Shown here piece after piece: positions 6,761-57,377 of a DNA stretch of 64,000 nt. Below the pieces are notes generated by a model. That model was not told where the DNA came from. It saw only the letters and a list, made by a program, of their open reading frames with translations, and did not search any database. The position numbers and the translations under genes are program-made. The stretch covers positions 3,963,747 through 4,027,746 of the forward strand of contig JACTAT010000027.1 of the NCBI GenBank assembly GCA_014526335.1. The letters run 5' to 3'. The stretch's first letter is position 1. Every line of letters begins with the position of its first letter. The DNA is from Chrysaora quinquecirrha. Its lineage: Eukaryota > Cnidaria > Scyphozoa > Semaeostomeae > Pelagiidae.

Positions 6761-6864
6761 AAGCCAGACAGTTTTACCGGAAAACCGGCATTTTATTAAA
6801 ACCGGAGAAACGGACTGTCGTCTTAGCGAAACATTGCCGAGATTTCGTCGGCAACGAAGCGAAA

Positions 6865-8604
6865 ATGAATCAGTCGAATTCGGTCAACAGCACGCCTGCC
6901 GAGATGTGTTTCTATCTCACTGTCGTCCACACTCATCACTCTTTCGGGTTGATTTTTACAGCCATCGTTACTTCGGTTCTCGGTATTTTCGTCACAACGG
7001 CTTCCGCACTCGGCAACGGTATCATGCTTTTCGTTTTCTGGAAGTACGAACGATTACGAACACCGTCCAATCTTCTCATTAGCAGCCTATGCGTCTCTGA
7101 TTTTCTCGTTGGGATCATCGTTCAACCGCTTAGCATTATCCGCCGCTTGAGCGAAGCGTTTGATCGACGCGTTTGTATCATACGGATTATTTGCGCGTAT
7201 TTCTTCGGTCTCTGTTTCATCTCCTCGATCTTCAACATAGGCCTTATCAGTATCGATAGATGCGCGGCGATTGTCAGTCCGTTCCGTTATGAGCGCACGG
7301 CGACTGTTTCGTTACATTTGAAGGTCATTTCCTTAACGTGGATCTTACTAGCTTTGTACTCTTCGCTCGTTAATTTCAATTTAATATCCGCTGCGGTAAA
7401 TTTTAAAATGATATTCGCAATGGTCGGAACTACAGCTTGTGTCGTTTTTATTTGCTACGGCCTGATTATTCGCGTTGCTGTTTCTCAACGGAGAAAAATT
7501 GCTAAATCTTCCGTTGTATTGCCTACGGGTGCAAGAGCGTCACGTTCAGAGGATTATGCGGCGGAGTGTTGTGTTTCTGGTCAAACTGTTGATGCGGTTC
7601 GTGTAGGCGCGGCGAAAGTAAACCGAAGTCTGAGCACTGAAAGCCGAAATGCGGAACACGAAATCTGTAATCTGAATGATCAATCGGAAAACAGGGAACG
7701 CGTAGTATGCAGTGTGATTAATGTAGATGGTAAAATAGGCTACAGAAATTGTATTTCGAGCAAGGAAATTGAAAACATGGATCAGGAGAATGTTGGCTTG
7801 TCCGATTATAATCAAAGTAAGGAACATACTAACTATAGTTTAAGCACTCGAGTGGAAGACACAGGACAAGAAATCTGCCGTTTGAACGGTGAAATAAGTA
7901 ACACGGTACACGCGTGTTTTCAAAAAGTAGATGCTAATGTGCGGACTATGCAAGACAGGGTTAAAAAAAGTGAATATAAACAGAGAACCACCACGAAAAA
8001 ACCAGTTGAGGGAACTAGCATCGAATCAGATATCGCTAGTCGTGATGATATTATGGCGTTTAATAAGACCATGGAAGAACGCGAATCACGATTAGGTGCG
8101 ATAAACGACAGGGATTATGTTTGTGATGATAACGGTGCTGCGATAGAGACCTTTTCCAGTGGAGAATTACGATTACAGTCGACAAACGAAACAGGTAACG
8201 CTAAAGGCGATATAAATGCAACGATAACAGAGACACAGTCACGTCGAGAATCGCGAATACAGACGATAAAGGAGAAACAACAAGATATAGGATTCCTAGC
8301 TAAGAAGTTATCAAAAAATTCCAAAGATATGCTCAGAAAAATCGGCGACTATCGCCGTGGAAGTGTCACTATCGCCATCGTCATATTCTTTCTCGTTATT
8401 TGCTATTTTCCACAAATAATATTGATGCTGATTAGAGCGACATTGGGCGATAATGTCGACCTGATCTTTATCGCCGATACTTGGTCGGATTTTCTCATCT
8501 TTCTCAACAGTTCGATAAACCCTTTGATCTATTGTTATCGTAATAAAATGATTCGAGACGCTGTTCGAAATACGATTCGATGCAACAGAGTGAATGCTGG
8601 TTAA
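6865..8604 (+). CDS. Class A (rhodopsin-like) GPCR, intronless, very long third intracellular loop
   Basis: A 579-residue seven-helix receptor. The start is the first ATG after an in-frame stop at 6760, and the tail has an N-glycosylation site (Asn8-Ser-Thr). Landmarks are TM1 Gly-Asn (N51), TM2 SD (D79), TM3 with Cys104 and the DRC form of DRY at 131-133, TM4 Trp159, TM6 CYFP at 513-516 and TM7 NSSINPLIY around 548-556. The second extracellular loop is very short and lacks the Cys that usually pairs with TM3, and TM5 has no Pro. This combination is seen in the melanocortin/S1P/cannabinoid-adenosine (MECA) branch. The third intracellular loop, about residues 212-497, is hydrophilic and unusually long. 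Ligand and G-protein coupling are unknown. The partial receptor at 3-689 is a tandem paralogue. Confidence 0.92.
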   Translation: MNQSNSVNSTPAEMCFYLTVVHTHHSFGLIFTAIVTSVLGIFVTTASALGNGIMLFVFWKYERLRTPSNLLISSLCVSDFLVGIIVQPLSIIRRLSEAFDRRVCIIRIICAYFFGLCFISSIFNIGLISIDRCAAIVSPFRYERTATVSLHLKVISLTWILLALYSSLVNFNLISAAVNFKMIFAMVGTTACVVFICYGLIIRVAVSQRRKIAKSSVVLPTGARASRSEDYAAECCVSGQTVDAVRVGAAKVNRSLSTESRNAEHEICNLNDQSENRERVVCSVINVDGKIGYRNCISSKEIENMDQENVGLSDYNQSKEHTNYSLSTRVEDTGQEICRLNGEISNTVHACFQKVDANVRTMQDRVKKSEYKQRTTTKKPVEGTSIESDIASRDDIMAFNKTMEERESRLGAINDRDYVCDDNGAAIETFSSGELRLQSTNETGNAKGDINATITETQSRRESRIQTIKEKQQDIGFLAKKLSKNSKDMLRKIGDYRRGSVTIAIVIFFLVICYFPQIILMLIRATLGDNVDLIFIADTWSDFLIFLNSSINPLIYCYRNKMIRDAVRNTIRCNRVNAG

Positions 8605-37025: not shown

Positions 37026-39039
37026 AAAATGTCGAGACTGTGTGTGTTTCTCCTCCTGGCTTTCTTGGTGGCAACAGCCTTAGCTGCTCCAATTGGTGAG
37101 AAGGATAAAACTGATGATAAGCCTGCTGATGATCAAACTAAAGCTGCAAACACCGAGACACAAAAGCCAGAAGCACAAGTAACTGAGCAAGAAGACAAGG
37201 AAGAAGATAAAACTGAAGACAAAGCTGGTGAACAAACTGAAGAAAAGACCGACGAGAAGACCGAGGAAAAGAAAGAAGAAAAAAGTGAAGAAAAAGTTGA
37301 AGAAAAAGCTGAGGCTAACGAAAATGAAGATGAAAAGGATGACAATGCAGAACAGTCTGAGAAGAAATGCGGCAGGTATAAGCAATATAAAATACCTTTA
37401 TTTTGCATTTATATGTGGCAACAGTATCTTTAAAATGCCAAAATAACCTAAAATCTAAGATAGCTCTACTATTGAAAAGTATTCATCCAACAAAGATGCA
37501 ATTGTTCTACAGAACCTGACGAGATCGTTGAGTAACTCTCCAAGTCTCTCCTCCAGTTTTTTGTTGTGTCTCAGCTATTATGAGCCTTCACCAGTGACAT
37601 AAATATCAACATATATTTGTCACTGATTTCCCATTTAGGCCCATATTAACACAAATTCTGGGTAGCCATTGCTGGGTTTGGACTTTCATATTGGATGGGC
37701 CTTTGGTTACCTTAAAGACGTTTTAAGGTTAATCTCCACCATAAATAAGAATGAATGTAGTGGGGTTCCACATGGATCGTGTTTGGCGCCTTTTCTTTTC
37801 AAACTGCACAGAATGGCTCCGAAAACTGTTTGAAAAACACCTGCCGATGAGACATAAGTGAATATCACGTCTACAGACCTAGTTGAGCTTCAACTGACTT
37901 GCGAAAAGAGCTAGAAAATAAATCAGGCTGGATGAGGATAGAAAAGCGTAGTTGGACTACTTCAAAAAGTGACTATATTCTCATAGGGTATGGACGACAT
38001 ATTGACAGGATAGAGACTTGCCCGATCTTGTCCTAATGGAGTTTACGTTATCAGAGCCGAAGGCGAAGCGAAATTAACTCTAACAGCACGTAGGCTAGGC
38101 AAAATTCACGGTGAAACGTTTGGTCCTTTCACCTTGGCTTCGATGGTGCATTAGTAGCTATATGTCAGTAAAATAGTCGTTATTAAAACATGAGATCGTT
38201 AGGATCAACTCACTGTTGTCCCCTTTAGGCCCAAATTAAACTATACCGGATAGCTATCGGTGTGTTTTGAAGTCCGCCCACTATCATTAGGTATTCCAAA
38301 AGCTGATTGGTGTTTAAAACACAATGCCAATTCAGCTTTTCTTTCTGATTGGTTCATTTTGAGCCGCATCTGGGTATAAACTTTGCCTTAGTCTATTGTT
38401 TCGGCCTGTTTCTGACGTTCATACTCTGAAGAGTGTCAGACGAAAAAAGCTTTTAAACATGCCCGAAAATGTTTCCGCTGTTTATCGTAATTTTTGTACA
38501 ACTCAAAGACTATTCTAAAAGTGTTTCATTTATATTTTAGCTGTGGTGGACATCACGGAGGCCATCATGTAGCACATCACGTTGAGCATATTGAACCTGT
38601 TCACGTCCATGCAGAACCAGTGCACCACGTGGTCGGAGCACATGTACACAACCACGAGTATCCTCATGTCGCTACTCACCATGGAGACCACTTTGCAGTT
38701 GATACTGGTGTAGCAGGCCATGTTTTCGGTGGTCATGGTTACGGCGGCCATCATGGCGGACACGGCGGATACGGTGGATACGGAGGATATGGCGGATATG
38801 GCGGACATGGTTATGGTCATGGACACGGTCACGGACATGCTGTCCATGTTCACCATACTGAGCATGTAGAGCCTTGTCATACCGTGTATGTTCATCACGG
38901 ACACCACGGCGGACACGGTTGCCATGGATATGGTGGTTATGGTGGCCATGGAGCTCATTTCGAAGGTGACGCAGCAGATAATGTGGAGGAGAAAGAGAAT
39001 GAAAATGCAGAAACAGCCCAAGAAGAAGATGAAGAGTAA
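37026..39039 (+). CDS. Gene A: secreted acidic + His/Gly-rich protein, two coding exons
   Basis: Exon 37026-37375 follows a TTCTCTTGCAG acceptor; ATG is at 37029. It ends GGCAG/GTATAAG in phase 2. Exon 38541-39039 follows TATATTTTAG and continues in phase, giving 281 residues. The signal peptide runs to ALA/API (about residue 20). A lysine/glutamate low-complexity domain follows (EEKTDEKTEEKKEEKSEEK-type words, about 21-112), then Cys-Gly-Ser-Cys at the junction. The His/Gly domain (about 116-265) has GGHHGG, GYGGYGGYGG and GHGHGHGH runs and two more Cys. The tail is acidic. No known domain is recognised. Its composition resembles metal-binding structural proteins such as Nereis jaw or squid beak histidine-rich proteins; this is an analogy, not homology. 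Genes B and C nearby have the same plan. Confidence 0.85.
37376..38540 (+). other. Intron of gene A
   Basis: GT-AG intron of 1165 bp, phase 2. No gene or mobile element was recognised inside. Confidence 0.75.
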
Positions 39040-39173
39040 ACATGGATTCTAGAAATTTATAATATGATTCATTAATGAATTGAGATAATTTTTGATACAT
39101 CAAAAAATCACTTTTAAACGTCTGTATCATTGCTTACGATCTATGCAATAGATAACTGCTGCATACAGTATAT

Positions 39174-39179
39174 AATAAA
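39174..39179 (+). terminator. Poly(A) signal of gene A
   Basis: AATAAA lies about 135 bp after the gene A stop codon. Confidence 0.55.
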
Positions 39180-39262
39180 TTTGTTAGTCAGTGAAAGCGT
39201 GTGTAACTTTCTCCATATAAAATCTGTTTTTGAAACTCGTGCTGATGAATCGAGAGTCGTAA

Positions 39263-39482
39263 GGCCCTGGCCATACATTTTGTGAAACGTTATCAAACAA
39301 TTTGTCAAAAGTTTGTCAAATATTTGAAAATTCCTCATCAAGTAATGTTTCAAAGTCTGGTCACGTCACAAAACATTGCTTGACAAGCTAAGCAAAAGAT
39401 GATGCGCGATATTTTTTAAAAAGTTTAAAAACATTTTGCTTGACAAGCAAATTTCAAATGTGTGCCAAAAATTGTTTGATTA
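39263..39482. mobile_element. Truncated PIF/Harbinger-like MITE
   Basis: It begins TAA/GGCCCTGGCCA like the intact element at 63346-63626. It shares the internal words TTTGTCAAA, GTCTGGTCACGTCACAAAAC and TGCTTGACAAGC. The right inverted end is lost or diverged after AATTGTTTGAT. Confidence 0.7.
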
Positions 39483-41149
39483 TATCAACTCTTCGCAAAC
39501 AGCAGCGACAGCCTTCCCTAAAAAACTGCGGCCTGTCTGTAGCTACAGCAAATCATCCAGGGAAGGTTGACAGAGGACTTCCGAAAGACTTTACCAAACC
39601 AGTGTCACATGATCACTGACGATTTGGCAGAAAGAGGTAATATGCAAATTGATCCACGTGATCATTTGTCACGTGATCATTAACAAGATAGTCAGTTCAT
39701 TTACCAAACACTCCACATAATGGCCAATCAGAAGGCTTGCTCAGGTTTTGGGGATTCAATTCAATAGATAAAGCTAAAAAGTCTCAGCCTCCTAAAATTC
39801 TGCGCAACCTCGTTCTGAAGACATAATGCTGCATTTCTGACTAATCAAAGAACTGTGAAATCTACAAGTAAGAGCTGGGAGACAGTGGCGTAGCAAGACA
39901 TCCAACATTGCAGGGGCAGAATGGCGTAGTCAAAAAAATTAGGGCGTGGTTTTCAGAAAAATAACTAGGTTGTACCATACAACATTTTTACATCATATTT
40001 AGCCTGTATAAAAAACTTATCTGGGCAATGATTGGAGGGGGGGGGTGACAAAAAACCCTTTGCCTCCTGTCTTCAAAATCAATTGCATTTGTAGTAGTAA
40101 AGACCAAAAACCTTTCATGATGTCGATTAAATCTGATAATAGGAGAAAAGGTAAGAATGTATTTTGGATAGAGCGGTTGAATGATATGAATCGAAGAAGT
40201 AATCAACAAACTGCGGACACTTGGCTTGCTTGACTAACAGAGTATTGTTCAGGCAAACCTTCTCCGTGAAAGCTGATTGGTAGACTCAATACATACACAA
40301 GTCGTTCGTAATTTGTCTATTGAATTGAATTGCGTCTAGCCCAGCGCGACCAGAAGAGCAGGGACTCTCTAGATCAAGCCGTTTATAAAATATTTCGGTA
40401 AAGTATTGGAAAGTCGACTAAAATAAATCAACAACACCAGTAATATGAAGTTCGAAGACATAAGATTGCATTATCAAAACATTGCCGTCAAGACATAAGA
40501 TAGCAGTACATTCATTTGAGAATCTCAAAAACCCACGCCCCTGGACGGCCAAATGTCCTCCTACGTGTACGAACCCCCTTTTTTACAACACAGTACCAAA
40601 AATATCAATACCATGCTAAAAAAACCTATGAAAATGTGATCTATAACCAAGTCTTCACTTCTCGATGACGGGTGGGAGCATTGCACAAAAACAATCAAAA
40701 TCAGATCTCCATGAATCGAAGCATGTTGATCATGACCTTACAACGGGTACCGTATGAACAACGTTTCATGTCACTGATTCCTGTTTACTTGTTATCGTTG
40801 ATACTCAACACAAACAACTACATTTTGTAGGGTAAGTATTGAATTTTAAATTTTTGTATTTTGTTTAATGCAACGTTATTCAAAAGGTATATAAATTTCA
40901 AACAAAGTTTTCTCGTCTGTGGAGTAAATTAAGTATGTCTTGCTATAAATTTCTTATATTAAACTGTTTTCTCTACCTATAAATTTCTTATATATTAAAC
41001 TGTTTGCTCTAGAGTTAGAACTTTAGTTGATTTTAAAACTCAGAAATTGTTTGTTATTCCGTCTTTGACTTGTTGAACAACAAAGTTTAATCTGGGCATG
41101 AAAGTGTCAACAATAGTCATGAGAAAGCATCTATTAACGTGTCGAATAG
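39483..41149. other. Intergenic, no gene seen
   Basis: No supported exon. A GAATTGAATTG motif lies at 40321 and a run of nine G at 40036-40044. Repeated CACGTGATCAT words occur near 39655-39680. Confidence 0.4.
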
Positions 41150-41990
41150 GGTATGGAAAATGCACTACTACCAGATGTCGTATAGGATAGACCTTCAAGA
41201 ACACGCTTCAAAATGAAGATGTGAGGGAATACGGCATGAAGTGAAGATGCTAATAAATGAAGTAGGAAATGAAGATGCCTATGGGTACATAGGGAAAATA
41301 GTACGAAACGAAATGGTAATTTACGTGGTATAAAATCTAATTAAATTGGTATGAAATTAAGACGCTCATGATTATGATAACGAATAAAGATGCTAAAAGT
41401 ATCAAATGAAGATGCTAATGAAAAAAGTGGGAAATGAAGATTCTAATGAATACAGTATGAAATGAACATTCTGATGAATACAGTAGAAGATTAAGATGCT
41501 AATCAATACGGTATGAAATGAAGATACCAATGAATACAGTATGAAATGAAGATGCCAATGAATACAGTATGAAATTAAGATGCGAATGAATACAGTATGA
41601 AATGAAGATGCTAATGAATACAGTATGAAATTAAGATGCCAATGAATACAGTAGGAAATAAAGATGGTAATGATCGATGTACGAAGTAGGAAATGATGTT
41701 GCTAATTAATATAATACGAAATGAAAGTGCTTATGAATCAGTATGGAATAAAGATGCAAACTTATAAGATTTGAAAGGTCAAGATTTGAAACCTAATTAG
41801 TACCTTCTAATTAGTTCCTTCTAATAAAACCTTATTAGTACCAAATGATGATGCTGATAAACATGAAATGAAAAGAAGATTATAAGGTCCCAATGGAGAC
41901 GCCATTGATTATGACATGTGAAGAATATCTTTTGAATACTGTATATGATGAAAATGCAGATGAAAGTGACATGAGGTGAAATGAGGACAA
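41150..41990 (+). repeat. 28-bp minisatellite 'AATGAATACAGTATGAAATG AAGATGCT'
   Basis: About twenty degenerate copies of a unit built from AATGAATACAGTATG and AAATGAAGATGC occupy the upstream region of gene B. They are most regular between 41400 and 41660. Despite many ATG triplets there is no long open frame. Confidence 0.85.
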
Positions 41991-42109
41991 TGTTTCAAAA
42001 ACACCATGCATCATTTACAGACAGCGTTGTTCTCTGTTTTGTTTTTAGCCCCCCACAAGCATACCCTATCATCTTCGTTTTTAATAACAATTGCTTTCTT
42101 TTTATTCAG

Positions 42110-44755
42110 AAATTTAGGTTATAGACAATGAAGATTACAGTAGCATTGATCCTGGCCTTAGGCCTTGCATTTGTTGCCAGTGCACCAATAGATCTTAATG
42201 ATCAAGAAGCAAGCAAGGAAGTTGCCATTGTCAATGATGTACAAGATGATGGCCAGAAGAGAGATGTAGCCCCAGCGAAGGAACAAAAAGAAGAAGGAGA
42301 AGGTAAGCAAGTGACTGTTTAGCTTTTCACCTCTAAGAGTCTTCAATAATGTCTAATATTTGACAAGGCGACAGTTAATAGTCCGGGCAAGAGGTTCATT
42401 CTTTCTATTAGATACCTCATAAGAAACTAAACAAACACTTGACAATATTTTTTGTGAAGAAAAGGTGAAATCATTCATATAAGAGAGTCATATAAGAGGT
42501 TAGGCCTTAGGTCAGGTACCAACCTTACATAGTAATATGCAAGACTTTGGTACTCGTCTGAACGAGTCTAAAACTCTCGAGTTAATCACTTGTCAGCCCA
42601 GGTCCGGTGTTGGTGTGATTAGCACTTGCGCTTCTCACGCAATAAACCCCGGTTCGATTCTCACACATGTCACTGACAAGCTCCAATAAGAGTGAAACGC
42701 GTCTGGCATTTGAGAATGGGGCGGCTGGTGAAATTAAATCTAAAATTGCGTTCAAAATTTTCAGAAGAAGAAGACGAAGAGGAGGAAGAAGATGAAGAAA
42801 AGCAAAAATCAACAAGAACAACAACAACAATTGCCACAGCAACAACAACAACAACAACCACAACAGCAACCTCAACAACCAGCAGGCCAACAACAGCAAC
42901 AACCTGCCGTAAATCCGGCCACCCAGCAAACTGGAGCCGCTCAACAACCTGCCGCCCAGCAAGGACAACAACAACAACAAGATGAAGACAAAGATGATGA
43001 GGATGATGAAGAAGATGATGAGAACAAGGAAGGTGATGATAGTGAGGAAGATGATGAAGAAGATGATAAGAAGAAGAAGGAAGAAGCCGCTGACGACAAG
43101 AAGGAAACAGAAGAAGAAGGGTGAGTAATCTACATAACCTATTAGTTACACTGTTTATTACAGCAACCGTCCCTGTTTTAGAACTATTGAAACTGCTTCC
43201 TTGCTCCAAAAGTAAGGACTGAAATGAAGAAAAGAACAATAAGAAGCTTAAAAATTTTTTGTCAATAACAAACGAAAGATTAAAATTGTTTGCTGTCAAC
43301 TGGAAATTCGACTGTATTTCCCAAAAGTCACAATCAGAGCAAGAGCAAGCTTTCTGTCGCTTCGATTTTGACCTTCATTAATTCTCACCGAATTTAGAAT
43401 GCTTTACAGTAGACCACTTCAAAGAGGTTTTTTGGAAGATGCAAGACATCCTGAGAAAGGGAATCCTCTCCGCGTGCAACGACCTGGTCGCATTAGGAGA
43501 GGTAGTGCAGCAAATTATGCTTCCAATTCAATTCCCAGCTTGTCTGCCCAAGTAGGCATTTAATCATGCATTTTCCTTTTTGTTTGTATTTTGCATCTTT
43601 TTTCCTGACTTTCTACAGATATTTTAAACATTTATTTTCGCAGATTCCTTTTCTCTCCTTTTCTTCAATTTTTCGTGAATTTTTTGTGAAATTTATTGCA
43701 GTACCTCTCCTAAATCGACCACAATCCATGTCGTTGCACGTGGAGAGGATTCCCTTACTCAAGATATCAGCCATCTTCCAGAAAAATGTCGAGTCAACCC
43801 AGACCTCTTTGAAAAGGTCTATTGACATATCCTTTCGCCAACTCTACGGTTCTCTTGTCCTATACCTTAGCTTTTTACTCAAACTATCTGACACTATAAC
43901 TAGGCAAGGGTCTACTCTACCGAGATAGCGATTTACGGTGGTTTTTACTTATGGAAAACAGAATGTTCTCAAAAACTCCAATCCAGCTAACAAATTGTCT
44001 CGGTACACTGTCAAATTACTTAGAACACAAGAGACTTGAAAGTCACTGGCCTTCTTGCCATAATAACTATGATAACTACATAGAATACAGAGAATGCAAT
44101 GAGAGAAATATCGTGATTACACATAATAAGAAAGTCATCGGGCGGAGATACAGAGGAGGAGATACAGAAAATGAGAACGGTTAGGAGAATATGGAAATTG
44201 ATCAACTAACCTGGCTTTCAAAGAGGATTCACACAGAGAGGATTCCGTGTAGCTGGATGTATACGAGATAAATTGATGAATAAAATTAATCAATCAATGT
44301 ATACAAAGAAGAAGAAAACAGAGATTGATCATGATATAATGGATGATCGTTCTTATTCTAGCGATCAAAGACATGGACTAGTCCATGGACATGGCCACAC
44401 TGACCACCACCCATTGGCTCCGTTTGACCAGCACTACGTTGCCCCAGCAATACATCACTACCCTGCCCCAGTTGTTCATCACGAACATCACCATGGTCAC
44501 CATGGATACGGAGGTCACCACGGTGGTGACCATGGTTATGGCGGTCACCATGGACACGGTGGTCATCATGGAGATAACCATCATGGACATCACGTTCTTC
44601 ATCTTCACCATCAACATCATCCAGAGCCAGCTAAAGTCGTCCATGTTCTCCATGACGACCATCACCATGGTCACCACGGCCATCATGGGGTGCATGTTTC
44701 ATACGGCCATCATGGCGGCCATCACGGGGGCTCGCATGCAGGAGGTCATGCATAA
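42110..44755 (+). CDS. Gene B: secreted acidic/Gln-rich + His/Gly-rich protein, three coding exons
   Basis: Exon 42110-42302 follows a TTTTTATTCAG acceptor, starts at ATG 42128 and ends AGAAG/GTAAGC (phase 1). Exon 42765-43120 follows AAAATTTTCAG and ends AGAAGG/GTGAGT (phase 2). Exon 44362-44755 follows TCTTATTCTAG. The signal peptide ends VASA/PID (about residue 19), an acidic stretch follows, then Gln-rich runs (QQQQQ with Pro), then Asp/Glu/Lys runs (DDEDDEEDDEN-like), then His/Gly (GHHGYGGHHGGDHGYGG). In the assembly, exon 2 begins in the E/D-rich frame but the Gln-rich part lies in another. One surplus A in the A5 run at 42804-42808 explains this exactly and gives 307 residues. Both outer phases fit the correction. 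There is no known domain; it is a sister of genes A and C. Confidence 0.8.
42586..42700 (+). mobile_element. tRNA-like SINE fragment in gene B intron 1
   Basis: GGTGTGATTAGCACTTGCG and CCCCGGTTCGATTCTCAC are spaced like tRNA A and B boxes. It lies just upstream of the exon 2 acceptor at 42764. The 3' limit of the element is unclear. Confidence 0.5.
43411..43828. repeat. Inverted repeat in gene B intron 2
   Basis: The left arm (about 43411-43520) contains CTTCAAAGAGGTTTTTTGGA and GGGAATCCTCTCCGCGTGCA. The right arm (about 43690-43826) is its imperfect reverse complement, with TGCACGTGGAGAGGATTCCC and CCTCTTTGAAAAGG. The spacer is about 170 bp. Both arms read similarly in translation (FKEV, FWKMxDIL, KGILSxCND), so they may be an inverted duplicate of an old coding fragment. 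Confidence 0.65.
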
Positions 44756-44871
44756 ACAGACGAAGACGCAGCACAATTACTGAAGACTGATTTTCACTTG
44801 ACCGAAGACAAAATCGACAGAAGACCTTACATGAGAATATACTTTGAAAACTTACTGACTTAAAGCAAAAA

Positions 44872-44877
44872 TAAAGT
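44872..44877 (+). terminator. Poly(A) signal of gene B
   Basis: AATAAA lies about 117 bp after the stop; a second AATAAAG lies near 44922. Confidence 0.55.
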
Positions 44878-45479
44878 ACTTGTAAATAACTACTTCCCCA
44901 GGAATAATGTTTTCCACGTAGAAATAAAGATATGAGCTTAGCGTAAGTCATTTATCATGAAAATCAGATCGGTTGTGAATGAAATGAACTTTTGTGTTAC
45001 TGAACCAACTGTTTGATGGCTGACTTTTGAGTAGGTTTCTAATACTAATTTCGAATGCGTAATCAGTCTAGACAAGTCTACATTGCAAATAATTACAAAT
45101 CCTGAGGCACTTTCAGTGGTTTGTGAAAAAGAAAGATTGCATCATTTAATATACTGTAATAGGAACAGAGAAGAGTCTCCAGGAAGAAGACAAGTCAATT
45201 TTGCTTATTGAATGTTCAAGTTCTGTAAACGATAACAGGGAGGTTGTGTTTTGGGAGAATGTTTTAAGACTGAATACCCTTTTTGGCAATGTGCGAGCTC
45301 GTGAAAAAAAGGATTTTGGAATGATGTTGAGTTGAAATGCCTCGCTGATGGTACACTTTGCTCTAATTGGAGGCTTAAGTACATTGAGCATAGAAGCATT
45401 ATGTTAAAACAATATAAGTTTAGAGCTTGGAGCATTATGCAGTGCTTTTTGCAGTGCAGTGCAATAAGAGTAGTCGCAT
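44878..45479. other. Intergenic or intronic, nothing recognised
   Basis: No coding exon seen. If the exon at 46084 belongs to gene B, this would be intron. Confidence 0.35.
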
Positions 45480-46020
45480 TAAGGTGGTAACGCGGTCAGA
45501 AAATGGCTAGTCTGTATGAATACTAAATTGCTGAGAAGTCTGTTGATCAACAGAATCCACTGACTTCCATGCAATCACTCAAAACTACAGTTACAGTGTA
45601 GGATATCTCTGTTGCTTGATACAGTAGATTTTGAGCATAACTCATGGCCAATGGGGATAGCCACATAAAAAGGGGAAACGCGGTCAAAAAAATGGCTAGT
45701 CTTGTATACTAAAGCGTATAAAAAAGTATTTACCGGGAAAACCTCCTGACGCATTTTCATTCAACTTCCCAAAAGTTAATGACAGTGCAGGAAGTCAAGT
45801 CTGATAACTTGTTAGATTGCTAACGACTCAAGCAATAAGTCTTAAGCAGTCGAAAGTATAAAAGCGAAGAAACGGTGGTATAGTGGTGGTCAGAAACATG
45901 GCTAGTCTTGTATACTAAAATGTATAAAAGTCTGAGAAAACCTCCTGACGCACTTCTATTCAATTACCCAAAACTGCAGTGACAGTGAATGATGTCTCCT
46001 TGGCTTGTTAGAATCTGAGC
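45480..46020 (+). repeat. About 200-bp tandem repeat, three copies
   Basis: ACGCGGTCAGAAAATGGCTA, GGTCAAAAAAATGGCTAGTC and GGTCAGAAACATGGCTAGTC head three copies at about 45491, 45678 and 45890. Each is followed by GTATACTAAA words and, in the last two, by ACCTCCTGACGCA and a GACAGTG word. Confidence 0.75.
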
Positions 46021-46083
46021 TTAATATTATCGCGGATTTCTTCAAAACTACGTTTTACTGATCAAATAATTTATTTACCACAG

Positions 46084-46462
46084 CAAACAAAGACATGGAA
46101 TGGGACACGGATATGGTGGACATGGATACGGCGGACATGGCGGACATGGTGGTCATGGATATGGCTTCGGACATGGCTATGACTCTCACATCGGACATGC
46201 TTATGCTGGAATAAATCACATCGTTGATACCGAGCCTGCAATCCATCATTTCCCTGGACATCATGGCGGACACCACGGCGGACACCACGGAGGACATCAT
46301 GGATACGGCGGACACCATGGTGGATATGGCGGCCATCATGGCGGACATCATGGCGCTGTTCATGTTTTACATCACAACGGACACCACGGTGGGCACCATG
46401 GCGGACATCATGGCGGTTATGGTGGACATGGTGGACATCATGGTGGATTCGGACATCATTAA
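46084..46462 (+). CDS. Orphan His/Gly-rich terminal exon, related to genes A and B
   Basis: The exon follows a TTTATTTACCACAG acceptor, is open in phase 2 and ends in TAA; it would encode 125 residues. It begins KQRHGMGHGYGGHGYGG, matching the start of gene B exon 3 (DQRHGLVHGHGH). The rest is GHHGGHHGGHHGGHHGYGG-like with a short IVDTEPAIHHFPG spacer. No signal-peptide exon is found between 44756 and 46083, where only tandem repeats lie. The simplest reading is an alternative 3' exon of gene B, since both acceptors share phase 2. Otherwise it is a duplicated gene that lost its 5' exons. An ATG at 46100 could in principle start an unspliced, leaderless form. Confidence 0.7.
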
Positions 46463-46816
46463 TCACGAGCTTAGCCAATGCAAACACTCAAGTCAAGAAA
46501 TGCAAATGAAACATAGCGTAATGGATCGTATATAGACAGGCCTCACTTCACTGACAGCAGATACTTTTATTCGTATTGCTATACAAGCATATACAATCAG
46601 AGACTTAAATACATAATACTATATTTAGAATAATTACTGAAAAAATGGAAAATTCTAAAAACGCACTCACATTTTCTTTTTCTCTTGCTAAGAGTAGAGT
46701 TGCTCTCCGGATTATCCATAAAGAAAAAACTTCAAGTGTAGTCTTTCTTTACTGATTTTAGCCATGTTGGTGAACATTTCTTTTCACTGATTTTCACTGA
46801 TACAGCATGCTGTAAA

Positions 46817-46822
46817 AATAAA
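46817..46822 (+). terminator. Poly(A) signal after the orphan exon
   Basis: AATAAA lies about 355 bp downstream of the stop codon at 46462. Confidence 0.4.
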
Positions 46823-47057
46823 TTGAAAATATAATAGCGGCTTAGAGAGCTCTTTATTCGGGCATGTACCACAGAGAGGCAATGCTACCTAAAATGCTAA
46901 TCAGAAACAATGGCATATTTTCCAAAAGTTTGGCAAGTTTACCTGCGATTAGAGCGATTGTTTTTTTTGTATCAAGACCATTACACATTTTTGTTTATAA
47001 GAAACCGGTTTATAAGAAACCAAGATCAAGAGACGCACAGAATTCAAGAAACTTTTA

Positions 47058-47572
47058 AGGCCTTGTTTACACGAGGCCCGTTCACTTTTGATCCCTATAA
47101 AAAGTGATACGGGTATGTTGCGTTTATACGGCGCCGCACAGCTTTTGTTATTGATAGGCTTTCCGTAGACTTACTTCATGAGTCGTTGTTATCGCTGTTG
47201 AATTGAATTGCTGGACGCTCAAACTACTGAAGCGAACAACAACGACATCAATTCAATTCAATTTGAGCGAAAGTTACGGACCCGGGCAAGGTTAGGCTTT
47301 CCGTTTACACAAGTGCAGATTCGCATGAAATAGAGGCCTAAGTAACGAACTGAAATTCGAAAAAATGTGGGCATATGCGCATAACACATAAACGTGTTTC
47401 AAAGCGGATCAAAAGTAAGCCAGATTGGTTGTTTACACGAGACCAGATCACTTTGGAAACATCTTGCTAAAAGGATCAGAACTGATCTGGCTATCCGTAT
47501 TGATTTTGATGCAGATTGCTTGGCCTCATGTAAACGGGAAGCGTATCCGTATCAATGTTTGTAAACGGGGCT
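47058..47572. mobile_element. MITE-like element with TAAGGCCTTGTTTACA ends
   Basis: The left end TAAGGCCTTGTTTACACGAG and right end TTTGTAAACGGGGCTTA are imperfect inverted repeats. Internal TGTTTACACGAGACC and CATGTAAACGGGAAGC repeat the terminal words. It contains a GAATTGAATTG...CAATTCAATTC inverted pair at 47198-47268. The ends resemble PIF/Harbinger-type termini, but the flanking target site is not a clean duplicate. Confidence 0.6.
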
Positions 47573-48318
47573 TAGGACTACATCAACATAATTAAGAAAT
47601 TTTAGAAATTTAAAGTCTGTTACTAAACCAGAGGGTATTGGTCTAACAACGTATTCGCGACTTATTTTCTGACAAAGACTCTTATCCCTCATAACCTATT
47701 TTGCGATCTATTTACTTTTCTTATCCATTTTAAAAACGACATTTAGGGAGGCATAACTTGAATCAAAGAAAGTATTAAGAAACCTTTAAGAAACTTTTGT
47801 ACTGAAATAGGGTAAAAAATTAAGAAACTTTTTGAACTACGCCCCAAGTTAGGTTTCTTATAAAATACAAAACGTGTAATTACGAAAAATTTAATTTGAA
47901 TATGAGGACTCTTTCTCGGCCATAACAATGGTGAAATATGACAATCATCGTAATTTTCTGCTGGTTTGCCTGTGGTATTTGCTGTTGCAGCTCCCAGAAG
48001 GTCAGAACAATACAAAACTTTGGCCTTCTCTCTCAAGAGAACGCGAAAGCAACGCGGAGATGACGTATCACCCAGAAGGTTGAATATCAGACGCAGACGC
48101 GGGAAAATGACTAGTGCCCAGATTCTTTGTCTGCTCGCGACGTCTTCTTTACTTATAGCGTCCTATTGCTAGAACAGACTTAGCTATAACAAAAATTCAC
48201 AACATAATTTTGTCTTGGCTATGTTCAATATCATATTCTAATATCTTCTAAACGCAGAAAAAGCAGTAATTCATAAAATAAATAAGGAACTATTAAATCA
48301 ATAGAACACCATAAAATA
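47573..48318. other. Intergenic, nothing recognised
   Basis: No exon or repeat supported. Confidence 0.35.
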
Positions 48319-48319
48319 C

Positions 48320-48678
48320 CGTGTGACGTCATCACAACTCTATTTTCAGAACTTAAATGCGTCAAAAATTATGCGCAAACGTGCAGAATAAGGCAAATTT
48401 GTCAAATACTGTATTGCCTGAGATATGGCCATCCGAAGAAAAACATGTCAATAGGAAATCACTGTACTTTGCGCCTTATTGCTTTATGAACCAGAGCAAA
48501 ACTACAGCGTTTCCTATTGAAATGCAGCTAGTATTTCTTAGGATGGCCATATCTCAGATAATATCTAACATATTTGACTGATTTTTTATAGATTTCTGCA
48601 CTTCATTTTTCTATGCTTTTTAAGAAAATGAAGAGCATATTGAGAAGTTCTAAAAATAGAATTTTGTGACGTCACGTC
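48320..48678. mobile_element. Fold-back MITE with GTGACGTCA ends
   Basis: The left arm GTGTGACGTCATCACAACTC then TATTTTCAGAACTT is mirrored on the right by AAGTTCTAAAAATAGAATTT then TGTGACGTCAC. Inside, GAGATATGGCCATCC and CAATAGGAAA at 48418-48456 are mirrored by TTTCCTATTG and GGATGGCCATATCTC at 48510-48560. Nearly the whole element could fold as one hairpin. Confidence 0.75.
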
Positions 48679-48985
48679 TTTAGCACTGTTAAATACACAT
48701 AAATAGACTTTTTCATGCCCTAGACAGTTCAATGAATGTTTAAGTTCAAAGTGGCTGCTATGGGGTAATGTTCAAGTAATATTAAAGTTCGAGTATGAAT
48801 TTGATCATCAGGAGCAGCACGCTAAAATCGAGTACTATGTAGAATTTTCACTGTAGAAATCAGGATGTACATAAGCATAAAAGATGAAACCCCATATGAG
48901 GCAACGCAATGTCCAGTAAAAGTTTGCGTATATAGAGTACACCCAGAAGAGGGAAGCGTCCGTGTCCAGTTTGAATCATCAGTAT

Positions 48986-51858
48986 TTAGAATCCATACCC
49001 GTAGGGTGCATGTCCGTGTTCTGAGCCCCATGATCCAGCTACACCACCATGGGTACCATGGGTGTGGGGGTCGTGTCCTGGCCAGATGTCGTATCCTCCG
49101 TGGTGGGCGTCACCATGGTGTGCGTGATCGATGATGGGATGGTGATCAACGACAGGATGATGCTCAAAGTGGTGCTCCTCTGGGTGGTGCACATGGTCGA
49201 TGTGAACATTGACCGGTACAGCAGCATGATGCGGTTGTGCGAGATGAAGATGATCATCATGACCGTGGTTGAAAGGTAGACCAACATGATGAACAGGCAG
49301 ACCAACAGCATGTGTGTGATGAAGGCTTCCATGGACTGGAATGTCTGCGCCGTGTTGCCGATGGCTGTGAGAGAGTGGGGTGGCACGTGGCACTCTTCGA
49401 AGTAGTCAGCATTTGGCCAGAAATACCAGGCTAGGTTGCCATCCCGACATTCAAGCTTTCCGCAAACATCTTCATAAGCTTGTTTACCATGTTCAACTTT
49501 TTTATCGTTGTATTTGCAATCTCTATGATAAATTAATAAATTAGTATGAGATGATGTGGTAGTGACAGGCAGAGGAAAGCGGATCAGAGTAGAGTGGCAG
49601 AAAAACAAAGTAAAGAAGAGCAGAGCAGAACACAGCACAGCAAGGTTGATAGTTTAGGAAAGAGGACAGCAAAATAGCAAAGACGAATAGGAGCAGAGTG
49701 TGAGCTGATAAAGGCAAAGTGAGAAGGGAAATGCAGAGCACAGCATATGGAGGAGAACAAAAGAAGAGCAAAGCAAAGCAGAGCAGAGAAGAACAGAGCA
49801 GAGAAGAACAGAGCAGAGAAGATCAAAGCAGAGCAGAACAGAGCAAAGCAGAGCAGAGCAGAGCAGAGTAGGGTAGAGCAGAGAAAAAGCAAAGCAGAGC
49901 AGAGTAGGGTAGAGCAGAGAAAAGTAGAGCAGAGCAGAGCAGAGCAGAGCAGAATAAAGCAGAGCAAGCTAGAACAGAGCAGAGCAGAGCAGAGCAGAGC
50001 AGAGCAGAGCAGAGCAGAGTAGAGCAGAGCAGAATAAAGCAGAGCAAGCTAGAACAGAGCAGAGCAGAGTAGAGCAAAGCAGAGCAGAGTAGAGCAGAGC
50101 AAAGTAGAGCAAAGGAGAGCAGAGCAAAGCAGAGCAGAGATTTGCAGAGCAGAGAACAGTAGAGCAGAGCAGTGTAGAGCAGAGCATAGCAGACCAAAGT
50201 AGAACAGAACATAGAATAGCAGAGCAAAGCAGAGCAGAGCAGAGCAGAGTAGGGTAGAGTAGAGAAAAGCAGAGCAAAACAGAGCACAGCAGAGCAGAGC
50301 AGAGTAGAGTGGAGCAAAGCAGAGCAGGGTAGAGCAGAGCAAAGTAGAGCAGAGCAGAGCAGAGCACAGCACAGCAGAGCAGAGCAGAGCAGAGATTTGC
50401 AGAGCAGAGCAAAGCAGAGCAGAGATTTACAGAGCAGAGCAAAGTAGAGCAGAGCAGTGTAGAGCAGAGCATAGCAGACAAAAGTAGAACAGAACACTGA
50501 ATAGCAGAGCAAAGCAGAGCAGAGTAGGGTAGAGCAGAGAAAAGCAGAGCAGAGCAGATAAAAGCAGAGCAGAACAAATCAGAGCAAGGTAGAACGGAGC
50601 AGAGCAGAGCAGAGTGGAGCAAAGCAGAGCAAAGCAGAGCAGAGCAAAGCAGAGCACAACAGATAGAACAAAGTACAGCAGAGCAAAGCACAGCAGAGCA
50701 GAGCAAAGCACAGCATAGCAGTTCTGATCAGAGAGGGAAAGACAAGAGCAAGCAACAGCACAGCAAAGATTCAAAGCATATTAGTAATCTAAGGTTACTC
50801 TAACTGAACAATCTATGCCGAGGAAATTACTTTTCGTTCTGTTTTTCTCTTTTAACGAGACTTCCAGTTGAGTCACCATTATTGTCATTATTACCAGTAT
50901 CACCTCCATCGCCACCACTTTTGTCATTTCCGTCATTTTTATCCTCTGGCTTCTTATCTTTACTGCTGTCGTCGTTCTCACCATCAGTACCGCCAGTGGA
51001 CGGAGCTCCTTTGTTCGGGTCTCCCATGTTATTGTCAGGACCACTTTGTGAAGTAGGTTCACTCCCATCATTGTTGGCGAAACTGTCACTTCCATCATTT
51101 TTATCCTCTGGCTTCTTATCTTTACTGCTGTCGTCGTTCTCACCATCAGTACCGCCAGTGGAAGGAGCTCCTTTGTTCGGGTCTCCCATGTTATTGTCAG
51201 GACCACTTTGTGAAGTAGGTTCACTCCCATCATTGTTGGTGAAACTGTCATTTCCGTCATTTTATCCTCTGGCTTCTTATCTTTACTGCTGTCGTCGTTC
51301 TCGCCATCAGTACCGCCAGTGGACGGAGCTCCTTTGTTCGGGTCTCCCATGTTATTGTCAGGACCACTTTGTGAAGTAGGTTCACTCCCATCATTGTTGG
51401 TGAAACTGTCATTTCCGTCATTTTTATCCTCTGGCTTCTTATCTTTACTGCTGTCGTCGTTCTCGCCATCAGTACCGCCAGTGGACGGAGCTCCTTTGTT
51501 CGGGTCTCCCATGTTATTGTCAGGACCACTTTGTGAAGTAGGTTCACTCCCATCATTGTTGGTGAAACTGTCATTTCCGTCATTTTTATCCTCTGGCTTC
51601 TTATCTTTACTGCTGTCGTCGTTCTCGCCATCAGTACCGCCAGTGGACGGAGCTCCTTTGTTCGGGTCTCCCATGTTATTGTCAGGACCACTTTGTGAAG
51701 TAGGTTCACTCCCATCATCATTTTGATCTTTTCCGGCATTTTCACCTGGGCCGTCATCATCTGGCAAGGGAGCAGAGTTAGCCAATGCGAGACACCAGCA
51801 AGCGAGCAGACAGAAGATCAAACAATTTCTCATCTTTGCTGTTCGCTGACAATTTAAT
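48986..51858 (-). CDS. Gene C: secreted acidic tandem-repeat + Cys/His-rich protein, two coding exons
   Basis: Exon 1 runs 51858 to 50831 after a TATTAATCTTAG acceptor, with ATG at 51833. The signal peptide ends NSA/PLP. About five 54-residue repeats follow (EPTSQSGPDNNMGDPNKG, APSTGGTDGENDDSSKDKK, PEDKNDGND), very acidic. A phase-2 donor GAAAA/GTAATT is proposed; unspliced, a TAA follows at once. Exon 2 (49522-48986) follows TTTATCATAG in phase 2. It starts KDCKYNDKK and has a Cys pattern like a single VWC domain (four Cys, CRDGNL), then a His-rich domain (HHVGLPFNHGHDDHLHLA, HHPEEHHFEHHP) ending PYGYGF. Two one-base gaps break the frame: T4 instead of T5 at 51260-51263, and a missing base at G4 49377-49380. 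With both restored the length is 513 residues. The joining of exons 1 and 2 is inferred. Confidence 0.68.
49590..50757. repeat. (AGAGC)n-type microsatellite array inside gene C intron
   Basis: About 1.2 kb of GCAGAGCAGAGCAGAGC, with interspersed AAAGC, GTAGAGC, GATTTGC and GAACAGAGC variants, fills almost the whole intron of gene C (50830-49523). The long LCSALLCSALL-like frames on the minus strand and their plus-strand counterparts are repeat artefacts. Confidence 0.9.
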
Positions 51859-57023: not shown

Positions 57024-57377
57024 CACATGGCGATACTCTGTGGAACAATAGCAATTCTTTTGCTATTGTCTCCAATCACTTCCGCCGCATACATTGGTTT
57101 CGACTCAGACAAACTTCGTGAAATAACAGACGATGAAATGGACAGATCTCTTGTTCCCATGATACGAATACCACGTGATGAACCACGTGATCCGAACCCA
57201 CTATTTCAAAATTCGTTTGAGATAAAAGACGAAAATGACGTGGATGAAACGCTGCGGTTTGGAAACGAGGCTTTAAGAAAGCGGGAAGTCAGTGAAGATA
57301 TGGGTGTGGAAACGATACAGCACACCGACAGCCAGTCGCCTCCTGAAAACGAGACTAAGCACGTAAGAACGTTATAA
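57024..57377 (+). CDS. Small cysteine-poor secreted protein
   Basis: The exon follows a CTCTTGTTTTACAG acceptor, with ATG at 57027, so a non-coding exon lies upstream. The 116-residue product has a clear signal peptide (residues 1-20, hydrophobic core AILLLL, cleavage TSA/AYIG). The mature chain is acidic and Cys-free, with RDEPRDPNP, LRFGNEALRKREV and a final NET glycosylation site. The single dibasic site (LRKR/EV) and Arg-Phe-Gly word invite comparison with peptide-hormone precursors, but the Gly is not followed by a basic cleavage site and no peptide is repeated. So a neuropeptide role is only a possibility. I recognise no family. The open frame extends upstream into a MITE; the conserved-looking part starts at this ATG. 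Confidence 0.65.
   Translation, partial: HMAILCGTIAILLLLSPITSAAYIGFDSDKLREITDDEMDRSLVPMIRIPRDEPRDPNPLFQNSFEIKDENDVDETLRFGNEALRKREVSEDMGVETIQHTDSQSPPENETKHVRTL

Follow-up and report, generated by a model that had tools for sequence, protein, structure and literature searches.

What do four histidine-rich exons, crowded into 11 kb of the genome of the scyphozoan Chrysaora quinquecirrha, encode? They lie on contig JACTAT010000027.1 (the assembly has 328 Mb in 740 contigs), within a stretch of 64,000 nucleotides at contig positions 3963747-4027746 that we call the window and whose numbering is used below. Three of the exons are the last exons of predicted genes that we call A, B and C; the fourth, exon D, lies between B and C. 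We read the region from 36 to 54 kb, listed its stop-to-stop frames and rebuilt the exon joins by script, so that every join given here is a prediction. Signal peptides were read by eye with the help of a hydropathy scan, and "signal-like" refers to that basis. On this reading the region appears to encode structural proteins, secreted and for the most part disordered, of a material that lies outside the cell or in secretory granules, such as a cuticle, capsule, glue or fibre, a conclusion to which we assign a probability of roughly 0.6.

The four His-rich exons are real and stand far above chance. The stop-free windows of 100 amino acids richest in histidine contain 42, 34, 31 and 29 His and fall at the four exons, compared with maxima of 4 to 9 when the window was shuffled 20 times with dinucleotides preserved; GC content is about 38%. 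The next-best frames lie antisense to two of these exons (25 His each), followed by one with 13. Frames of 60 amino acids with at least 12 His and at least 6 Gly occur at all four exons and as two antisense shadows, and at no place in 199,954 bases taken from elsewhere on the contig (about 99 kb to the right of the window, about 89 kb to the left and 10 kb around a paralog of gene C, small overlaps included). The flanks do hold 11 His-rich stretches of 60 amino acids, none of which (0/11) reaches those His and Gly counts. Three of them (L008) lie opposite Asp-rich frames, as expected of simple GAT-like repeats, two (L011 and L015) represent the same dispersed repeat, and the remainder are simple or tandem by eye. 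The shuffles, and the different kind of His stretch in the flanks, rule out a chance or microsatellite origin of the four frames.

Gene A is the clearest case. It is an intact gene with a probably secreted product, and the two-exon model proposed for it in the first-pass annotation stands. Exon 1 (37029..37375, + strand) runs from an ATG at 37029 through a signal-like start (hydrophobic stretch 3.44) and an acidic block rich in Glu, Lys and Asp, with a net charge of -20 across 93 amino acids, to a GT donor after 37375. An AG acceptor precedes exon 2 (38541..39039, + strand), which is rich in His and Gly (24% and 25%), has conserved cysteines and ends in an acidic tail with its stop at 39039. 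The join is in phase 2, and the joined open reading frame gives 281 amino acids without an internal stop, in the order signal-like start, Glu/Lys/Asp-rich block, CGSCGGHHGGHH, His/Gly/Val-rich region and second acidic tail. When the His exon was used in a protein search, two of 7979 scored candidates passed. The first, P0001 (E 2.5e-13, 54% identity over 72% of the queried region), retains the non-repetitive blocks HEYPHV, AVDT.VA, AVHVHH and EPC, together with cysteines at three positions and the acidic tail; because it keeps these features, it appears that the last exon of gene A has been under selection as coding sequence. The second, P0002 (E 8.3e-4), carries PF07172, a plant glycine-rich family, and was set aside. 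A genome search with the exon at E up to 0.001 gave a single candidate, the query's own place, which is no measure of rarity.

Gene B has three coding exons on the + strand. Exon 1 (42128..42302) has a signal-like start, a short acidic stretch and the donor GTAAGC; exon 2 (42765..43120, in an open frame at 42744-43124) is Gln-rich and then acidic and ends at a phase-2 donor, GTGAGT; and exon 3, or B3 (44362..44755), is the last exon, with 37% His and 21% Gly. The earlier model was right about the His-rich last exon; its account of gene B is corrected to three coding exons, with exon 2 shifted by one base against exon 1 in the assembly. Read from the strong donor at 42302, which gives phase 1, and the acceptor at 42764, exon 2 meets a stop at 42983-42985; the Gln-rich frame that continues as far as the phase-2 donor at 43120 is offset from exon 1 by a single base. 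It is plausible that a run of five A residues (A5) in exon 2 is the site of an assembly error, and a weak alternative donor may also be the source of the offset.

The additional His/Gly exon noted earlier at 46084, our exon D (46084..46462, + strand; 32% His and 40% Gly, or 72% together), is also real. It is a duplicate of B3: both open with G[D/K]QRHG once joined, and a C follows both acceptors. In the interval from the end of gene B to 46084 we saw, on the + strand, no start followed by a hydrophobic stretch of the signal-like kind (hydropathy at least 2.2). Because D duplicates B3 and has no signal-like start of its own in view, the simplest reading is that it is likely an alternative last exon of gene B. 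A genome search with B3 at E up to 1 scored only the query's own place; it missed exon D and is therefore no measure of rarity.

Gene C, on the - strand, also required revision. Its exon 1 (50831..51833) has a signal-like start followed by about five repeats of 162 bp (54 amino acids) rich in Asp, Asn, Lys and Gly. Of these, copies 1 and 2 show no difference, copy 4 has 5 deviating bases in 162, copy 5 diverges toward its end (14/162), and copy 3 is one A short of its sister repeats (A4 rather than A5); the donor after 50831 is in phase 2 once that missing A is counted. The predicted intron (49523..50830) is mostly an AGAGC minisatellite of nearly 1 kb, at 49765-50721. The last exon begins near 49522, at an AG acceptor in phase 2, about 160 bases upstream of the start in the earlier model, which had found the His-rich exon and lacked the conserved domain before it. 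The first part of the exon (49381..49522) encodes a four-Cys, VWC-like domain (CKYN...CGKLEC...EECHVP), and the second (48986..49380) a tail with 28% His that lies in another frame after a one-base break past the Cys domain. As assembled, gene C therefore has two one-base breaks, one in the third repeat and one just after CHVP.

The upstream start of this exon follows from its relatives. In a protein search with the last exon, the frame break bridged with X, 4 of 18 candidates passed, P0003 to P0006 (E 3e-54, 9.5e-46, 2e-41 and 3.3e-10), and all four read in one continuous frame across the window's break, from the Cys domain into (P/A)PL.HGH and a His-rich tail; a spliced start of the His exon at the AG before 49364 is thereby ruled out. 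P0004 and P0005 cover the domain in full, and P0003 and P0006 from inside it; the pattern of the family is CKYN...HG..AY.DVCGKLEC..G.L.WY.WPNAD......CHVP, and the His frame of gene C retains its relatives' end motif. A genome search with the Cys domain gave gene C and one paralog only, 0.84 Mb off on the same contig, where the domain lies behind a signal-like start. Since the search gave only these two, P0003 to P0006 very likely come from other genomes; we are less sure of this for P0001. No bacterial or viral relative of gene C was found among 489 pattern matches in genome_contigs and 77 in viral_contigs, none of which encodes one by tblastn.

A full VWC domain has a pattern of ten cysteines, whereas the domain of gene C has four, and the fold of VWC subdomain 1 consists of two- plus three-stranded sheets. 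In a fold comparison of the Cys domain, the VIA rows name mucin, NEL and VWF modules, families off that list being still possible. None of the five Cys-domain members matched a Pfam family, even with E values of up to 10 allowed, with the limit that HMMER filters may drop very weak matches, and a sequence search of PDB with the gene C family gave no match at E up to 1.

Do these genes form one family, as the first-pass annotation proposed? We compared the His regions in 21 pairs, with 300 dipeptide-preserving shuffles for each. Gene A scored highly with P0001 (z 15.4) and clearly with B3 (z 5.5), as did P0001 with B3 (z 3.8) and B3 with D (z 6.3); the scores of A with B3 and of B3 with D lie above all 300 shuffles. 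Judged from these scores, A is of common ancestry with B, and B with D, in the His region. A second group links C with P0004 (z 14.4) and P0006 (z 4.1) and these two with each other (z 6.4), so that by sequence gene C groups with P0003 to P0006 in a separate family with the VWC-like domain. Between gene C and A, B3 and D (z -0.1, -0.3 and 0.6) there is no detectable relationship, a very distant link being still possible, and their likeness appears to be one of composition alone, as far as the shuffle test sees. Marginal scores were obtained for A with D (z 2.0) and A with P0006 (z 1.9), in each case reached by 11/300 shuffles, and weak residual ones for B3 with P0006 (z 1.8, 10/300) and with P0004 (z 1.5, 28/300); P0001 with D (z 0.5) was not significant over the 300 shuffles. 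A single, locally expanded family for A, B and C thus finds no support in this test, which links A with B and B with D and leaves C outside. The claim of a shared architecture survives in part, as all three genes have an acidic part, a His part and a phase-2 join into the last exon, although B has three exons and the last exon of C starts further upstream. That both parts sit in one predicted chain, which is probably secreted, is likewise supported, as is the clustering of the genes.

Taken as structural proteins, the products of A, B and D would be directed by their signal peptides into the secretory pathway, where the acidic or Gln/acidic block may provide solubility and bind cations and the His/Gly-rich exon may condense and cross-link on a rise in pH or the arrival of zinc or copper. 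The conserved cysteines of gene A could add disulfides to His-mediated cross-linking. The exon anatomy of gene B suggests two versions of its protein through a choice between two last exons, and in gene C the small VWC-like domain, a likely docking module, would be tied to a His-rich tail behind acidic repeats. This reading draws support from the intact frame of A and its conserving relative, the relatives of the C family and the paralog of gene C, the duplication of B3 and D, the local concentration of the exons, and published analogues in sponge silica, the Nereis jaw and nematocyst spines.

Several observations weigh against it. Genes B and C cannot be read through as assembled, and because of these frame breaks, one of which the relatives of C lack, either gene may be a pseudogene. 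The paralog of gene C has no acidic block and is weakly His-rich. N-terminal acidic halves were recovered in none of the relatives, from a sequence collection that seems to be single-exon, and for this reason the pairing of acidic and His parts is a prediction for the window only. The search for relatives proposed earlier thus found the last exons of A and C in other records, no acidic halves, and, with B3 and D as queries, no match at E up to 0.001 among 7990 scored candidates, where composition correction may hide relatives. Finally, we infer every step that involves metal, pH or condensation.

The general kind of protein is already known by analogy, with comparable acidic-plus-His proteins in other animals. 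Our comparison drew on parts of the following papers: PMC10772126, PMC13120676, PMC6171002, PMC2687796, PMC10014300, PMC9205923, PMC9935875, PMC7430897, PMC4195985, PMC6626399 and PMC11959691. By their descriptions in these excerpts, Nvjp-1 and Nai11527 of the Nereis jaw and the HBPs of squid beak are likewise rich in His and Gly (Nai11527 contains 29% Gly and 16% His and starts with a signal peptide), and zinc binding is reported for the Nereis jaw proteins; however, no acidic half is described for Nvjp-1, Nai11527 or the HBPs in the portions available. The earlier view that the exact combination had not been described is weakened by spinalin, glassin, perisilin and HRC, which are of close build as far as the excerpts go. 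Apart from a title on spinalin, our literature search found no cnidarian protein of this build in the text accessible, and the accessible part of the pedal disc paper (PMC6626399) does not mention histidine.

Spinalin suggests an alternative that we consider possible, if rather unlikely: A, and B with exon D, could be nematocyst structural proteins that are sorted to the capsule vesicle and then assembled into spines or operculum. Spinalin is reportedly a protein with a signal peptide that ends in a basic and an acidic region, as Koch et al. are said to have described in 1998. The likeness to the window genes includes a Gly/His-rich sequence, lineage restriction, alternative downstream exons and a secretion signal; exon D, with its 72% Gly+His and its probable role as an alternative last exon of gene B, fits this picture. 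The available parts of the papers place the Gly/His-rich spinalin in the spines and operculum of Hydra nematocysts and describe a locus with alternative downstream exons (PMC9205923, PMC4195985, PMC2687796). However, in the sections at hand, orthologs of spinalin are reported as not found beyond Hydra, or as not found in Nematostella or Galaxea, and a harpoon protein of Nematostella that one paper calls spinalin-like is called a fibroin-like factor by another. Set against spinalin, the window genes have a signal-like start, but their last exons have 49% (A) and 72% (D) Gly+His and lie behind an acidic block, which is large in gene A. A bolder version, which we regard as very doubtful, would make A, B and D the counterparts outside Hydra of Gly/His-rich nematocyst spine proteins, with B exchanging the His-richer B3 for the Gly-richer D to set stiffness for each cell type and C adding its VWC-like docking domain to the same material.

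A similarly improbable alternative to the structural reading is that A alone still works as a gene, while B, D and C are relics in decay. The one-base break in B, the two in C and the lack of a first exon for D in view would fit such decay, but all three breaks are of single bases, and that in the repeats of gene C is a short A run compared with its sister repeats. The other two appear to coincide with short A or C runs or to fall close to them, where long-read assembly is expected to err. Apart from the breaks the frames are open, and the preserved end motif in the His frame of gene C speaks against decay as well.

We think it still less likely that these are matrix proteins associated with calcium carbonate or silica, in which the acidic block would bind mineral ions like the acidic matrix proteins of corals or glassin. 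Secreted acidic low-complexity proteins are typical of skeletal matrices. In the partial texts available, glassin, from hexactinellid sponge silica, starts with a signal peptide and has, in the same chain, a domain rich in both His and Asp. Perisilin, from the same kind of silica, has a signal peptide and a Cys-rich domain joined to a His-rich C-terminus that varies and is missing from some members, which resembles gene C and its paralog. Glassin, however, is built of tandem HD, P and HT domains, a repeat that was not seen in the window genes, which encode the acidic part and the His part on different exons. The domain of perisilin is CAP/GLIPR1-like, whereas that of gene C is small and VWC-like, and neither the gene C frames nor the five aligned members matched any Pfam family. 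No paper was found that combines a histidine-rich protein, coral, skeletal organic matrix and proteome, and no word starting with "histidine" occurs in the main text of a paper on an octocoral skeletal proteome.

A role in buffering or detoxifying metals (zinc, copper, nickel or calcium) rather than in structure would suit the high His and acid content of the region and seems about as unlikely as the mineral reading. It finds a model in HRC, by excerpts of its description a high-capacity calcium binder in which a signal sequence is accompanied by repeats rich in His and in acidic residues, by poly-Glu and by a Cys cluster. HRC, however, resides in the sarcoplasmic reticulum and alternates His and acidic residues inside one repeat. 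Against this role, the Gly/Tyr-rich GGYGGHG pattern and repeat turnover of the window genes resemble structural proteins; retention and membrane signals were judged by eye.

The surroundings of the cluster are varied. In the window, an intronless frame at 6763-8604 encodes a rhodopsin-type G protein-coupled receptor (Pfam 7tm_1, E 5e-26), a 20.6-kb satellite at 12388-32953 comprises about 106 copies of a 197-bp unit with 93% matches, and a signal-like start with a dibasic site (FGNEALRKR) at 57027-57377, without a Pfam match, is possibly a secreted peptide precursor. By eye, frames of the satellite-like unit also occur near the gene C paralog (L023 7782-9600). About 57 kb to the right of the window end, on the minus strand (L009:6773-7580), lies a probably secreted acidic gene with a signal-like start, Pro/Glu-rich repeats of the PEN type and a phase-1 donor; no His+Gly-rich frame was found in the surrounding sequence examined. 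Nearby, also on the minus strand and identified by eye, are an astacin-like metalloprotease exon (L009:9421-9684) and, near the cluster, a collagen-plus-immunoglobulin frame (L015:7309-8292). The dispersed repeat of the flanks is present as near-identical copies about 151 kb apart (L011:6836-7486 and L015:8607-9227), with a His/Pro/Tyr-rich tandem frame.

If the predicted joins hold, this locus would contain members of two families of secreted proteins that the literature we found does not describe and in which a single chain combines an acidic with a His-rich polyelectrolyte. The gene C family also shows a conserved Cys domain of small size that matches no Pfam family, and the relatives of both families in other sequence records are material on which these proposals can be tested. 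For the cnidarian host, the genes would be candidates for Gly/His-rich proteins of the stinging capsule or cuticle, which the parts of the literature available report from Hydra alone.

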